Below, piece after piece: positions 12,243 through 35,706 of a stretch of DNA of 64,000 nucleotides. The notes below the pieces were generated by a model. The model was not told the DNA's origin. It made no database searches and saw only the letters and a program-made list of their open reading frames with translations. The stretch's first letter is position 1; each line of letters opens with the position of its first letter. Made by a program: the position numbers and the translations under genes. The stretch comes from an uncultured Oscillospiraceae bacterium (GTDB lineage: Bacteria > Bacillota > Clostridia > Oscillospirales > Oscillospiraceae), in the NCBI GenBank assembly GCA_947629915.1, contig CANRFN010000003.1, positions 1 to 64,000 of the forward strand, written 5' to 3'.

Positions 12243-12428
12243 TCACTTCTTCCGGAAGTGGCGCACCAGGAGGGCGGTGATCACCACCGCGGCCACGATG
12301 AGAAGGGCGATCACAGGGAGATTATTCTGAAACTCGTTCATCGCGATCTCCACCGGGTCCACGATCACGTCTAGGGCCAGGGGGAGAAGGGACAGCAGCG
12401 CGAGAAGGGGGAATGTTGTGATTGTCAT
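12243..12428 (-). CDS. Small membrane protein, paralogue 2
   Basis: A 61-residue protein with a hydrophobic N-terminus, a middle segment (LDVIVDPVEIAMNEF), a membrane helix (LPVIALLIVAAVVITALL) and a basic end (VRHFRKK). It is a clear duplicate of the neighbouring 60-residue protein; the last 25 residues differ at only a few positions. The ATG at 12428 follows GGAGGT with a 6-nt gap. Function unknown. It could be a membrane subunit or modulator of the upstream MFS-like protein. Confidence 0.7.
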   Translation of the reverse strand: MTITTFPLLALLSLLPLALDVIVDPVEIAMNEFQNNLPVIALLIVAAVVITALLVRHFRKK

Positions 12429-12482: not shown

Positions 12483-12665
12483 CTACTTTTTGCGAAAATG
12501 CCGCACCAGGAGGGCAGAGATCACCACAACTGCCACCATGAGAAGGGCGATCACGGGCAGGGATTCCAAGAGCAGATCCGTTGCGATTTCCACCGGGTCC
12601 ACGATGGCGTCCAGGGCCATGAGAGAGAGGGACAGGAGAACGGGAAGAAAAACGGGATTCAGCAA
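12483..12665 (-). CDS. Small membrane protein, paralogue 1
   Basis: A 60-residue protein with the same build as its neighbour: hydrophobic N-terminus, LDAIVDPVEIATDL, a helix (LPVIALLMVAVVVISALL) and VRHFRKK. The start is a TTG at 12665, seven bases after GGAGGT. It overlaps the end of the upstream 120-residue gene by seven bases, so it is coupled to it. The whole ribosome-site-plus-TTG unit is duplicated just upstream. Function unknown. Confidence 0.68.
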   Translation of the reverse strand: MLNPVFLPVLLSLSLMALDAIVDPVEIATDLLLESLPVIALLMVAVVVISALLVRHFRKK

Positions 12666-13021
12666 GACAGAGACCTCCAAGACAGAGACCTCCAGGCAGA
12701 GAGGAGCAGTCCGATGCAGAAGGAGAACAGGTTGGCGCAGAGGGAGAACCCCCAGGGGTGGCGGATGGCGGTGTAGCGGCGGTAGAACCAGCCCTCTCCA
12801 GTGCATGCGGCGATCTCCAGAAGGGCGGTGGCCGGGAGCAGAAGAGGCGGAAGATATACCAGAAACAGCCGGTGGAACAGCACCACCATGGGGTTGGAGA
12901 TCGCGTTTGCCAGGGCCACCGGCCGCAGGGAGGCGAGCGGCTCTCCCCAGAGGCGGGCAAAGGCCAGTTCCAGGAGCACAGTGAGGGCCAGGGAGAGGAG
13001 CAGGGCGGGAAGCAGGCTCAT
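12659..13021 (-). CDS. Conserved-looking small integral membrane protein
   Basis: A 120-residue protein with about four membrane helices (start MSLLPALLLSLALTVLLELA; a central stretch with ANAISNPMVVLFHRL; a final helix SLCANLFSFCIGLLL). Its ATG at 13021 overlaps the stop of the MFS gene (ATGA). I do not recognise the family. Tight coupling suggests a partner of the MFS-like protein. Same-frame sequence upstream of 13021 is a shadow of the MFS gene. Confidence 0.7.
   Translation of the reverse strand: MSLLPALLLSLALTVLLELAFARLWGEPLASLRPVALANAISNPMVVLFHRLFLVYLPPLLLPATALLEIAACTGEGWFYRRYTAIRHPWGFSLCANLFSFCIGLLLSAWRSLSWRSLSC
12664..12693. repeat. Tandem 15-bp duplication of an SD-plus-TTG unit
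   Basis: Two perfect copies of a 15-bp unit (12664-12678 and 12679-12693). On the minus strand each copy reads GGAGGTCTCTGTCTT; the inner copy is followed by G, giving the TTG start at 12665. The duplication doubles the ribosome-binding site of the 60-residue gene. Confidence 0.85.
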
Positions 13022-14052
13022 CGCCAGTCCCTCACACGCAGCACCGGGATGAGCAGCGCCAGGAGGACAGCCGTGCCGATGGCCAGGGGAATGGAACCCG
13101 GCTGGGGCAGCGCCAGGCCGATGGTTGTGGGAAGCGCCCCCAGGAAGAGGGCGAACTTCAGAAGGCCAAAGGAGAAGCCCTTCGCCTGAGGCAGCAGTCT
13201 GGCGGCATACCAGAAGAGCAGCGGGACGGAGCAGTGGAAGAGGAAGATCGCGCCGATGCCCGGGATGGCGTAACCGCTGGCGAGAAAGAGGACGGCGGAA
13301 AGGCCGATGGTCCCGGCGGTGGTCTTGTTTGCGCCCAGGCGATCCCCGAGGAAGCCGCCCAATGTCTTGCCCAATACCACCGCGATGGCGGCCCACACGG
13401 CGAGGCCGCCCGCCTTCCAGGGAAAGGACAGGGAGAGGCTCAGGTAGGACTGGAGGAGCACCGCCAGAAAGCAGCTCACCAGCACGAGGGCGGCGCTTTT
13501 GCCCCCAGGTGTAGACAGCGTGAGAGACAGGGGCTGGTTTCTGGAGCGGAGGCTGCGGTTGTGGTAGATGTCCAAAAGGGGTATGACGGACGCGAAGAGC
13601 ACCAGCCCCGTGAGGGGGATCCACATGGAGACCGCCCGAGACTGTCCCCACAGGGTGCCCAGAAAGATCCCCATGGCGCCGGGGGAGACGAAGATCCCCA
13701 GAGGGGATATCTCCTCCTCGCAGGTGTTCAGCACGTCCACGCCGCCGCCCACATGGTAGCAGGCGTTGCCGATGCCGGCCAGAATCACCGCTGCCAGAGG
13801 GGCCCGCAGGAACAGCCATCCGCCAAACACCAGAACGCACCCGGCGGCGGCCAGGGTGGAGTTGCGGTTCAGCCGGTCTGCCAGCAGCCCGATGGGCATC
13901 TGCAGGGCAAAGGCGCAGAAATTGTAGAGCAGCATGGCCATCAGCCAGTCCTGGGACCCGCGGAGCCAGGAGAACAGCAGCAGGGCACAGGAGAAATCGA
14001 TCCAGAAGTGCCCGCAGGCGTAAGCGGCCAGCTGGCTGCCGAGGCGTTTCAA
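13018..14052 (-). CDS. MFS-type transporter
   Basis: A 344-residue protein with about 10-12 membrane helices. The loop QMPIGLLADRLNR (~45-57) matches the MFS loop 2-3 motif, and a GACYHVGGG-like stretch follows. The start is taken as TTG at 14052, nine bases after AGGAG; a TTG at 14061 abuts that site. A possible -10 (TATACT, 14181-14176) lies upstream, with no clear -35. It leads a coupled set: MFS, 120-residue, 60-residue and 61-residue proteins. Slightly shorter than usual for MFS (~400). Substrate unknown. Confidence 0.78.
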   Translation of the reverse strand: MKRLGSQLAAYACGHFWIDFSCALLLFSWLRGSQDWLMAMLLYNFCAFALQMPIGLLADRLNRNSTLAAAGCVLVFGGWLFLRAPLAAVILAGIGNACYHVGGGVDVLNTCEEEISPLGIFVSPGAMGIFLGTLWGQSRAVSMWIPLTGLVLFASVIPLLDIYHNRSLRSRNQPLSLTLSTPGGKSAALVLVSCFLAVLLQSYLSLSLSFPWKAGGLAVWAAIAVVLGKTLGGFLGDRLGANKTTAGTIGLSAVLFLASGYAIPGIGAIFLFHCSVPLLFWYAARLLPQAKGFSFGLLKFALFLGALPTTIGLALPQPGSIPLAIGTAVLLALLIPVLRVRDWR

Positions 14053-14205
14053 GGGGCTCAACTCCTCTCAGGAAGGGATATCCTTTAGACGAGTGGAGAG
14101 GCAAAAAGTTCCTTCCAGTGCGCGAAAACTGGAAGAGAACACCCGTTCGCTGGCGTCTCAAGACAATGAAAATGCAGTATATCAAATAATAGGACAATCA
14201 CGAGG

Positions 14206-14348
14206 CAAAAAAGGTGCCCACGCCGCGACTGCAGTCCGGAAAACCAGCAGCCGATGCGCAGGCAAAGAAGGGAAAAGAGCGGAAAAACAGATGAGGTCTC
14301 AAGGATAGCACGCGGACAGAGAATCCGCAAGATGGGAACAGGGATTTT
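14206..14348 (-). ncRNA. Structured small RNA, array copy C
   Basis: Predicted 143-nt RNA. The -10 is a perfect TATAAT (14360-14355). The 5' box (14339-14327), a 5-bp hairpin (GCGGA/TCCGC), GTGCTATC (14311-14304) and a pyrimidine-rich run follow. The end is a branched hairpin whose outer 8-bp arms (14263-14256 with 14223-14216) precede ACC and six U (14212-14207). The 76-nt core (14264-14339) aligns without gaps to copies A and B. No ORF fits. Confidence 0.6.
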
Positions 14349-14354
14349 TAGGAA

Positions 14355-14383
14355 ATTATAATGAGGATGAGGATACTGGTCTG
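14355..14383 (-). promoter_or_regulatory. Promoter of small RNA copy C
   Basis: CAGACC (14383-14378), a 17-nt spacer and TATAAT (14360-14355). The -35 is unusual but matches the TCAGAC found ahead of copy A. Confidence 0.6.
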
Positions 14384-14447
14384 AAGCGGTTCTCCGCCTG
14401 TCCCGCAAAGCGGCTCCTCCAGGGCCAGGGGAGAAGAGAACCCCGGA

Positions 14448-14575
14448 AAATAGAAAGCGCTGCCTAAGCAGAGGTGCTTAGGCAGCAAAAAAACTGGGGG
14501 TGGTGTGTGTGAACACCGGTGAGAAGAGTAGCACATTTCCGCCCCCAATGCAAGAGGAAAATCGAAAAAAATCGA
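14448..14575 (-). ncRNA. Structured small RNA, array copy B
   Basis: Predicted ~128-nt RNA. The 76-nt core (14487-14562) carries TTTTCCTCTTGC, then GTGCTACTC, a 5-bp hairpin (GGTGT/ACACC read on the plus strand) and an ACCCCCA run. It ends in a perfect 11-bp stem with a 6-nt loop (14459-14469 with 14476-14486) followed by GCTTTCTATTTT on the minus strand. Confidence 0.58.
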
Positions 14576-14581
14576 GGCCTT

Positions 14582-14610
14582 TCGATAGCAAGTTCATGTA
14601 AGTATGGCAA
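14582..14610 (-). promoter_or_regulatory. Possible promoter of small RNA copy B
   Basis: TTGCCA (14610-14605), a 17-nt spacer and a weak TATCGA (14587-14582). Poorer than the promoters of copies A and C. Confidence 0.35.
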
Positions 14611-14646
14611 TTTAAGTTAGATATTGGCGGCACCGATCCCCCGGAA

Positions 14647-14803
14647 GAGAAAAAAGTGCTGCCTGTGTATCCAGATACGCAGATCGCTCTGCGCCGCAAC
14701 CACAATTACACAGGCAGCAAAGAAATGGGGGGTAGGTTCTGCACGAACCGTGCACTAAGATAGCACAATCCTGCCGAAAAGGCAAGAAGGAAATCGCATT
14801 TTC
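14647..14803 (-). ncRNA. Structured small RNA, array copy A
   Basis: Predicted ~157-nt RNA. The core (14719-14794) has TTTCCTTCTTGCC, a TGCC/GGCA hairpin, GTGCTATC, a GGTTC/GAACC hairpin and an ACCCCCC run. It ends in a 12-bp perfect stem (14658-14669 with 14707-14718) holding an inner CGCAGA/TCTGCG hairpin, followed by ACTTTTTTCTCTT on the minus strand. It has the longest terminator loop of the three copies. Confidence 0.6.
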
Positions 14804-14809
14804 AGGGAG

Positions 14810-14840
14810 ATTATCGCGGATTACAAAGGATGGATGTCTG
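14810..14840 (-). promoter_or_regulatory. Promoter of small RNA copy A
   Basis: GATAAT (14815-14810) with CAGACA (14840-14835) upstream at a 19-nt spacing. The -10 lies exactly as far from the RNA core (15 intervening nt) as in copy C. Confidence 0.5.
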
Positions 14841-14873
14841 ACACGGCGGGCCTCATGAATTTTGCCGAACCGA

Positions 14874-14902
14874 TTGCAATCCAGGGGGACAGGCGGTACA
14901 AT
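14874..14902 (+). promoter_or_regulatory. SigA promoter of the PHP gene
   Basis: TTGCAA (14874-14879), a 17-nt spacer and TACAAT (14897-14902), 21 nt before the ATG. It is divergent from the small-RNA promoter at 14810-14840. Confidence 0.7.
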
Positions 14903-14923
14903 GTCGGAGAAAGGACTGGTTCT

Positions 14924-15787
14924 ATGTTCGCCGATCTCCACATGCACAGCACTGCCAGTGACGGCACAGACGTCCCGGAAGCGCTGCCGGCCCTGGCCAA
15001 ATCTCACGGCCTTGCCGCCGTTGCCCTCACAGACCACGACACCATCTCCGGCTGGAGGCCCTGGCTGGACGCCGCGCCCCGGGACATTCTCCGGGTGCCG
15101 GGCATCGAGTTCTCCTGCTATGGGGACCACGGGAAGTGCCACATTCTAGGGTTCTGTCCGGACCCGGAGCACCCCCAGTTCCAGGCCGCCCTGCAGGAGG
15201 GGGCGGACCTGCGCAGGAAAAAGCTGGACACCAGGCTGCAGTGGCTGGAGCGCCACGGGTACGCGCTCACCCGTGCGGAAAAAGACCAGCTGTATCACCT
15301 CTCCAGCGCCGGAAAGCCCCACCTGGCCAACCTTCTGGTGGAGCACGGGTATTTCCCGGACCGCACCACGGCCATCCAGGCCGCCCTGAACGGCATTCCC
15401 GGCGGAAACGCCCGCATCCCGGCCAGAATTGCGGTGGAGGCCATACACGCCTCCGGCGGGGTGGCGGTGTGGGCCCACCCCTTGGGCGGCGTAGGGGAGA
15501 GGACCGCCTCCCCGGAGGAGTTTGACAGCCTCCTCCAGGAGCTGATGGGGTATGGCCTCCAGGGACTGGAGTGCTGGTACTCCAAGTACGACAGCCCCAC
15601 CTGCGGCCAGCTGGAGGCCCGGGCCAAGGAGCTGGGCCTGCTGGTCTCCGGCGGCAGCGACTACCACGGCGCCAACAAACAGGTCTGTATGGGCACCCTC
15701 TGCGATGGACCCGCTCCGGTCCCCGGCGTGTCCGCAGACCGCCTCACCGTCCTCCCGTGGCTGGAGAAAGAAGGTCTGATCCGTTGA
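14924..15787 (+). CDS. PHP-domain phosphoesterase (YciV/TrpH type)
   Basis: A 287-residue protein beginning with the PHP metal motifs: DLHMHSTASDG (residues 4-14), then ALTDHDTISG (~36) and GIEFSC (~63), with a later HPLGG (~185) and SGGSDYHG (~240). These fit the family that hydrolyses nucleoside 3',5'-bisphosphates or short RNA 5' ends. I chose ATG 14924, which follows GGAGAAAGGA and sits just behind the promoter; an upstream in-frame start at 14834 would precede that promoter. It is coupled to the next gene by a TTGA overlap. Confidence 0.85.
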   Translation: MFADLHMHSTASDGTDVPEALPALAKSHGLAAVALTDHDTISGWRPWLDAAPRDILRVPGIEFSCYGDHGKCHILGFCPDPEHPQFQAALQEGADLRRKKLDTRLQWLERHGYALTRAEKDQLYHLSSAGKPHLANLLVEHGYFPDRTTAIQAALNGIPGGNARIPARIAVEAIHASGGVAVWAHPLGGVGERTASPEEFDSLLQELMGYGLQGLECWYSKYDSPTCGQLEARAKELGLLVSGGSDYHGANKQVCMGTLCDGPAPVPGVSADRLTVLPWLEKEGLIR

Positions 15788-34737: not shown

Positions 34738-35022
34738 GTCTCTTGGCCTGGGACCGATATGGCGTGCCTTTCCCGGGGCGGGGAAGCACCCCGGGCAAAG
34801 AGAGTGGCCTGCTGGATGACAGATCCTTCCAGAAAGTGTGTTTCCAGGCGGTTCTGGCAGGCGGACTTCGCCGTCTTTCGGCGGCTTTTCCCGGAAACCG
34901 GGGAGAACAGCCGTTTTTCGGCGGGAATCCCTTTCAAATCCCGCTGAAGCCGTCCCAATTCGGAATTGGAAATCCTTGGATAATTCGGGCAAAAAAACTT
35001 TTCAAAAATCGCAAAAAGGGTG
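34738..35022. other. Non-coding stretch before the tRNA genes
   Basis: I see no gene. Reading frames crossing this region also run through the tRNA genes and lack family features. The composition turns AT-rich toward the tRNA promoter. Confidence 0.5.
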
Positions 35023-35051
35023 TTGACAGCCGGCCAAGCACCTGCTATAAT
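35023..35051 (+). promoter_or_regulatory. Consensus promoter of the tRNA operon
   Basis: A perfect TTGACA (35023-35028), 17-nt spacer and perfect TATAAT (35046-35051), as expected for stable RNA. It lies 42 nt before the first tRNA. Confidence 0.85.
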
Positions 35052-35093
35052 CCGGCATGTCGTTTGACGAACGGCGGTTCCAAAGAGCCCCAA

Positions 35094-35169
35094 GGGAGCA
35101 TAGCTCAGCTGGGAGAGCACTTGCCTTACAAGCAAGGGGTCACAGGTTCGAGTCCTGTTGTTCCCACCA
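35094..35169 (+). tRNA. tRNA-Val (UAC)
   Basis: A 76-nt cloverleaf. Acceptor GGGAGCA pairs with TGTTCCC, the anticodon loop is CTTACAA in a CTTGC/GCAAG stem, the T-loop is TTCGAGT, and CCA is encoded. Confidence 0.96.
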
Positions 35170-35174
35170 AATGT

Positions 35175-35251
<77 letters not shown>

Positions 35252-35262
35252 CAATCTCATAT

Positions 35263-35335
<73 letters not shown>

Positions 35336-35341
35336 CTCAAT

Positions 35342-35417
35342 GCGAGTGTAGCTCATCTGGTAGAGCGCCACCTTGCCAAGGTGGAGGTAGCGAGTTCGAG
35401 CCTCGTCACTCGCTCCA
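35342..35417 (+). tRNA. tRNA-Gly (GCC)
   Basis: Acceptor GCGAGTG/CACTCGC, anticodon loop TTGCCAA in a CCACC/GGTGG stem, discriminator T, CCA encoded. Confidence 0.96.
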
Positions 35418-35475
35418 AATTTTCTCTCAATCGGGGTTCTGTTTGGAGATACCAGTGCATATCGTACTGGTGTAC

Positions 35476-35546
35476 GGCGCCATAGCCAAGTGGTAAGGCA
35501 AGGGTCTGCAAAATCCTCACCCCCAGTTCGAGTCTGGGTGGCGCCT
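35476..35546 (+). tRNA. tRNA-Cys (GCA)
   Basis: A 71-nt gene. Acceptor GGCGCCA/TGGCGCC, anticodon loop CTGCAAA, discriminator U73 as expected for Cys. CCA is not encoded. Confidence 0.95.
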
Positions 35547-35592
35547 CTTTTGAAAGAGCAGGCCGAAAGCCTGTTCTTTCTTCTTCTTTTAT

Positions 35593-35665
35593 CCGGGTGT
35601 AGCGCAGCTGGTAGCGCGCTTGGTTCGGGACCAAGAGGCCGTGGGTTCAAATCCCGCCACTCGGA
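35593..35665 (+). tRNA. tRNA-Pro (CGG)
   Basis: Acceptor CCGGGTG/CACTCGG, D-arm GCGC/GCGC, anticodon loop TTCGGGA in a CTTGG/CCAAG stem, T-arm GTGGG/CCCGC, discriminator A. CCA is not encoded. The CGG anticodon reads CCG, a codon favoured in high-GC genomes. Confidence 0.94.
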
Positions 35666-35669
35666 CTTT

Positions 35670-35706
35670 CCCAGAGTGCTTGTCACTCTGGGATTTGTTT
35701 TTTCCC
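35670..35706 (+). terminator. Terminator of the tRNA operon
   Basis: A 9-bp stem CCCAGAGTG/CACTCTGGG with a 5-nt loop (35670-35692) and ATTTGTTTTTT. Confidence 0.88.

Follow-up and report, generated by a model that had tools for sequence, protein, structure and literature searches.

Three minus-strand promoter-terminator units, two with predicted sibling small RNAs, in the genome of an uncultured Oscillospiraceae bacterium

C-rich motifs that bind Shine-Dalgarno sequences have been described in several bacterial small RNAs, including LhrC, RsaE, FsrA and IsrR (PMC4132741, PMC9410917). The LhrC RNAs of Listeria monocytogenes are multicopy, C/U-rich small RNAs with a C-rich motif complementary to the Shine-Dalgarno sequence (PMC4132741), while the AT-rich genome of the staphylococci is said to render runs of G selective as targets (PMC9410917). 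The csRNAs of Streptococcus are CiaR-dependent sibling small RNAs, some of which are encoded in tandem (PMC4211561).

The locus considered here lies in a 64,000-nt window (the whole stretch of DNA that was analysed) and is predicted to encode three short minus-strand RNAs, termed RNAs 1 to 3. It resembles LhrC in having several related copies and in the succession of 5' stem-loop, single-stranded C/U-rich stretch and terminator (PMC4132741); folding places an unpaired C-rich motif between a 5' stem-loop and a terminator in RNAs 1 and 2, though RNA 3 has no 5' hairpin. LhrC, however, carries three redundant UCCC sites where the RNAs here have one C motif, the present locus offers two, or at most three, copies at one site, and regulation of the LisR type is a feature described for LhrC. 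The csRNAs are likewise sibling small RNAs, some in tandem (PMC4211561), but they belong to another host group and are described as CiaR-dependent, and neither an Rfam match nor any sequence relation to the units was seen. With RsaE/RoxS, FsrA and IsrR of the Firmicutes the point in common is a C-rich stretch left single-stranded, for which binding to ribosome-binding sites has been proposed (PMC4132741, PMC9410917); targets have been mapped for those RNAs, whereas no target signal clearly above base composition emerged here. There is no Rfam similarity to the LhrC, csRNA or RsaE families, as far as these are held in Rfam.

The region from 14060 to 14920 was read on both strands and analysed by alignment, by folding and by scans for open reading frames, repeats, terminators and Rfam families. 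An earlier note on this DNA had placed three minus-strand units in the gap between two divergent genes, at about 14803-14647 (unit 1), 14575-14448 (unit 2) and 14348-14206 (unit 3), and both reading and alignment bear this out. The units lie head to tail, and each runs from a predicted sigma-A promoter through a 5' segment of about 33 nt to an intrinsic terminator, which includes the strong G+C stem and U-rich sequence that the note had seen at the end of each unit. All three promoters are orphans, with an intrinsic terminator within about 150 nt and no convincing open reading frame between; overlapping frames of 66-107 aa in the region were judged spurious by eye.

On the right, the locus is bounded by the divergent promoter of a PHP-domain gene (TTGCAA-N17-TACAAT, 14874..14902, plus strand), whose likely start is the ATG at 14924. 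Its left edge is a terminator-like hairpin followed by TTTTT (14111..14136, minus strand) in the leader of a downstream transporter-like gene starting at about 14049. This leader (14111-14170, minus strand) also contains an extended -10 element (TGATATACT), and the hairpin and T tract before the start codon are possibly an attenuator. For the gene itself (13018-14061, minus strand), previously called MFS, Pfam gives no match at E 0.001, and the best homologue found, at 42% identity, belongs to another genus. Further along the same strand, 12243-12428 and 12483-12806 encode two small, membrane-like proteins, tandem duplicates that both end in ALLVRHFRKK and share 73% identity over 51 residues; they have no Pfam match, and their genes adjoin ExbB/ExbD-like genes.

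The three units share a 76-nt core that aligns without gaps around an invariant CTTGC-N15-GTGCTA (within 14761-14787, 14529-14555 and 14306-14332), just as had been described. These blocks had been taken for RNA motifs, a reading that does not hold: judged by comparison with the host genome and family, they are the -35 and extended -10 elements of the host sigma-A promoter, that is, TTGCnn, a 17-nt spacer that ends in an extended TGC, and TAnnnT. Boxes of the sigma-A type (-35 TTGnnn and -10 TAnnnT, 16-18 nt apart) occur in every unit, always with a 17-nt spacer. On the minus strand, promoter P1 (14757..14785) combines TTGCCT with TGC-TATCTT, P2 (14525..14553) TTGCAT with TGC-TACTCT, and P3 (14302..14330) TTGCGG with TGC-TATCCT.

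The motif recurs before genes and tRNAs, both throughout the genome and across the family. The pattern TCTTGC-N14..16-GTGCTA has matches in 161 of 200 family genomes, and its matches far outnumber those of a reversed control pattern. A TAnnnT continuation, most often TATAAT, is present at all 33 sites read (30 family loci and the window's three), and several of the 30 family loci lead directly into apparent tRNA genes or into a Shine-Dalgarno sequence and start codon. Across the 1.26 Mb read in stretches from the genome that carries the locus, TAnnnT is present at each of the 13 TTGC-N15-GTGCTA sites, with 0 exceptions. Nine of the 13 are intergenic, in DNA that is 85% coding, and most of those outside the locus lie a short distance upstream of a start codon. 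The window also holds a six-tRNA operon (Val, Asp, Phe, Gly, Cys, Pro; 34900-35670, plus strand) with a textbook promoter, TTGACA-N17-TATAAT, in which the same extended TGC precedes the -10 box; two related genomes have TTGACA-N17-TATAAT after GTGC, upstream of a gene. Elsewhere in the genome, at C17:38299-38327, a promoter of the same type leads directly into a hairpin and a T-rich stretch. No open reading frame was found downstream of it within the DNA examined, and this site is a possible further small-RNA gene.

Because of the TAnnnT continuation, the genome- and family-wide sites before genes and the promoter of the tRNA operon, the shared core reads as a housekeeping promoter, and the "conserved core" of 76 nt is mostly promoter, not an RNA motif. 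The Oscillospiraceae-type promoter, TTGCnn-N17-TAnnnT with an extended TGC, accounts for the invariant blocks; the three -10 boxes at this locus (TATCTT, TACTCT, TATCCT) depart from it in being C-rich and off consensus. Several earlier proposals change accordingly. The arm in which TGCC/GGCA was said to be replaced by GCGGA/TCCGC lies between the -35 and -10 boxes and hence is not in a transcript from that promoter; both the hairpin and its supposed compensation fall outside the RNA because both are in promoter spacers, and the unit 2 counterpart of the TGCC/GGCA hairpin is not a good hairpin (-2.0 kcal/mol). The GATAAT and TATAAT boxes proposed as upstream -10 elements are not needed, as a full promoter lies inside the core, and by eye unit 2 is without such a box. 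Transcripts of about 70-105 nt are predicted in place of the 130-160 nt suggested before.

RNA 1 (14649..14751, minus strand) is predicted to be about 100 nt long, from a start placed some 6-7 nt past the -10 box, and comprises a 5' hairpin (GGUUC/GAACC), an unpaired UACCCCCCAUUUCUUU, a long-armed terminator stem of 13 bp and a U tract. The predicted RNA 2 (14446..14520, minus strand; about 72 nt) has a 5' hairpin (GGUGU/ACACC), an unpaired ACCCCCAGUUUUUUU, a 13-bp terminator stem and an imperfect, interrupted U tail (CUUUCUAUUUU). Across the aligned 76-nt core, identity between units 1 and 2 is 62%. Within the first 45 nt of the RNAs, the register-locked identity is 29/45, a value that none of 5000 dinucleotide shuffles matched, and the score of an unregistered local alignment was reached by 2 of 2000 shuffles. 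Folded from their predicted starts, the two RNAs adopt the same shape, with z-scores of -4.7 and -6.8. The common 5-bp 5' hairpin has changed at two positions with pairing kept; the second of the variable arms claimed earlier does correspond to real hairpins in the fold. Also in common are a single-stranded ACCCCC(C) and U-rich run, the CCCCC beginning 28 nt past GTGCTA in both RNAs, and the terminator stem, which has diverged in sequence with its pairing retained. Units 1 and 2 are thus, on the evidence of alignment and folding, paralogous, duplicated "sibling" genes for predicted small RNAs.

Unit 3 is another matter, and the idea of three copies stands for the first two units only. Its core is 47% identical to that of unit 1 and 41% to that of unit 2, mostly in the promoter boxes. 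RNA 3 (predicted, about 90 nt; 14205..14298, minus strand) has a C/U-rich single-stranded 5' part and a terminator with a CUUUUUU tract; its register-locked matches to RNAs 1 and 2 (15/45 and 16/45) give p values of 0.34 and 0.27, and a covariance model of the RNA 1/2 pair did not recover it. Since it shares with the other units both the promoter and the distance of about 33 nt from start to terminator stem, unit 3 may be a far-diverged third copy, or else an unrelated unit with the same layout.

The distribution of the pair was surveyed widely. Rfam covariance models at the gathering threshold identified only tRNAs in the window, and a scan of the region gave chance matches only, in keeping with the earlier view that the RNAs belong to no known family. 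No additional unit copy was found in the genome itself, a BLAST search of 99 relatives with the region returned short chance matches only, and a distant blastn search of phages and plasmids gave no match. The covariance model of RNAs 1 and 2 was run against 149 relatives and 400 family genomes (overlapping sets, about 490 genomes in all) and found its own copies and weak matches but no homologue, with the stricter filters of the larger scans being such that weak matches can be lost. The weak matches that were inspected proved to be terminators of a generic kind, the ends of T-boxes and, antisense to a transposase, a C-run. A pattern search of 394 genomes of the order, which recovers both known copies, likewise yielded no homologue. 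A promoter plus CCCCC pattern occurs in 64 of 400 family genomes, and by eye these appear to be assorted promoters rather than homologues. Five exact pattern matches turned up in viral contigs, and a few are expected by chance because the pattern has 17 fixed bases and the collection is large. Within the sampled genus there is no close homologue of either flanking gene, PHP or transporter-like. The PHP protein has its nearest relatives (up to 51% identity) in Oscillospiraceae MAGs of the "Lapin" series, and upstream of those scanned there were no comparable units. The genome itself is 5.8 Mb (100% completeness, 1.3% contamination), others placed in the genus being 1.7-5.1 Mb and mostly under 4 Mb. 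The RNA 1/2 pair is therefore known from one genome among those searched. The conservation in related genomes that had been anticipated was not seen, and there is no cross-species covariation because there is no homologue elsewhere.

What might such RNAs do? The three units would be transcribed as short, terminated and presumably noncoding RNAs that most likely act in trans. Their unpaired C- or U-rich stretch (UACCCCCC and ACCCCC; UUUUCCCUUCUUU in RNA 3) could pair with purine-rich ribosome-binding sites and so lower translation of the targets, while the 5' hairpin and the terminator would shield the RNA ends. Pairing of the C-rich runs with Shine-Dalgarno sequences, already suggested in the earlier note, is possible, but target prediction supports it no better than base composition does. 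Duplex energies at 363 predicted start regions are stronger than in coding interiors for all three RNAs, yet show no clear advantage over those of composition-matched shuffles of each RNA. The C run is not very selective here because the genome is 57% G+C. The analysis establishes the promoter identity, on comparative evidence, as well as the terminators, the paralogy of RNAs 1 and 2 and the absence of homologues in the searched genomes. We favour the model as a whole (three sigma-A units, two of them sibling small RNAs, with anti-Shine-Dalgarno action in trans) and give it about an even chance of being correct.

The chief rival holds that these are tandem promoter-terminator units with no function in trans, either terminated by-products of duplicated promoters or neutral relics of local duplication. 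Their presence in one genome only, the off-consensus -10 boxes, the unrelated body of unit 3 and the second tandem duplication close by, that of the small membrane proteins, all fit such an origin. It does not readily explain why the 5' hairpin of RNAs 1 and 2 stays paired despite a changed stem, or why the C run is kept and a perfect terminator stem has diverged with pairing intact, and we consider it unlikely, if still a serious contender. Alternatively, the region might be a long attenuated leader of the transporter-like gene, built of serial promoters and partial terminators. The units and this gene are on one strand, the gene's own leader has its terminator-like hairpin (14136-14111), and the tail of the RNA 2 terminator is imperfect; but units 1 and 3 end in strong terminators, a separate extended -10 for the gene seems to lie just upstream of it (TGATATACT), and no known riboswitch or T-box matches, which leaves this explanation rather improbable.

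Least probable by far is the original proposal, in which one novel structured RNA, 130-160 nt long and sharing a conserved core of 76 nt, would be present in three copies. The cores do align gap-free with invariant blocks, but those blocks are a generic, family-wide promoter and the body of RNA 3 is not detectably like RNAs 1 and 2. Tandem small-RNA genes nonetheless remain a fair description, with no Rfam match; it is the structural argument that was largely promoter DNA, and only two of the RNAs are demonstrably related. Returning to the favoured model, the locus is a plausible small-RNA locus of ordinary architecture whose sequences are new. A more specific picture can be offered tentatively, as something that may well prove wrong: a species-specific family of C-rich, trans-acting small RNAs caught just after tandem duplication of promoter and RNA together, with the third copy diverged to new targets.

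To our knowledge, there is little description so far of regulatory RNAs in this large family of gut bacteria. If RNAs 1 and 2 are a lineage-specific sibling pair, they would provide a small test case for the birth of new small RNAs. As CTTGC-N15-GTGCTA is a promoter signature in the family, tandem "conserved RNA cores" that contain this motif should be read as promoters first.
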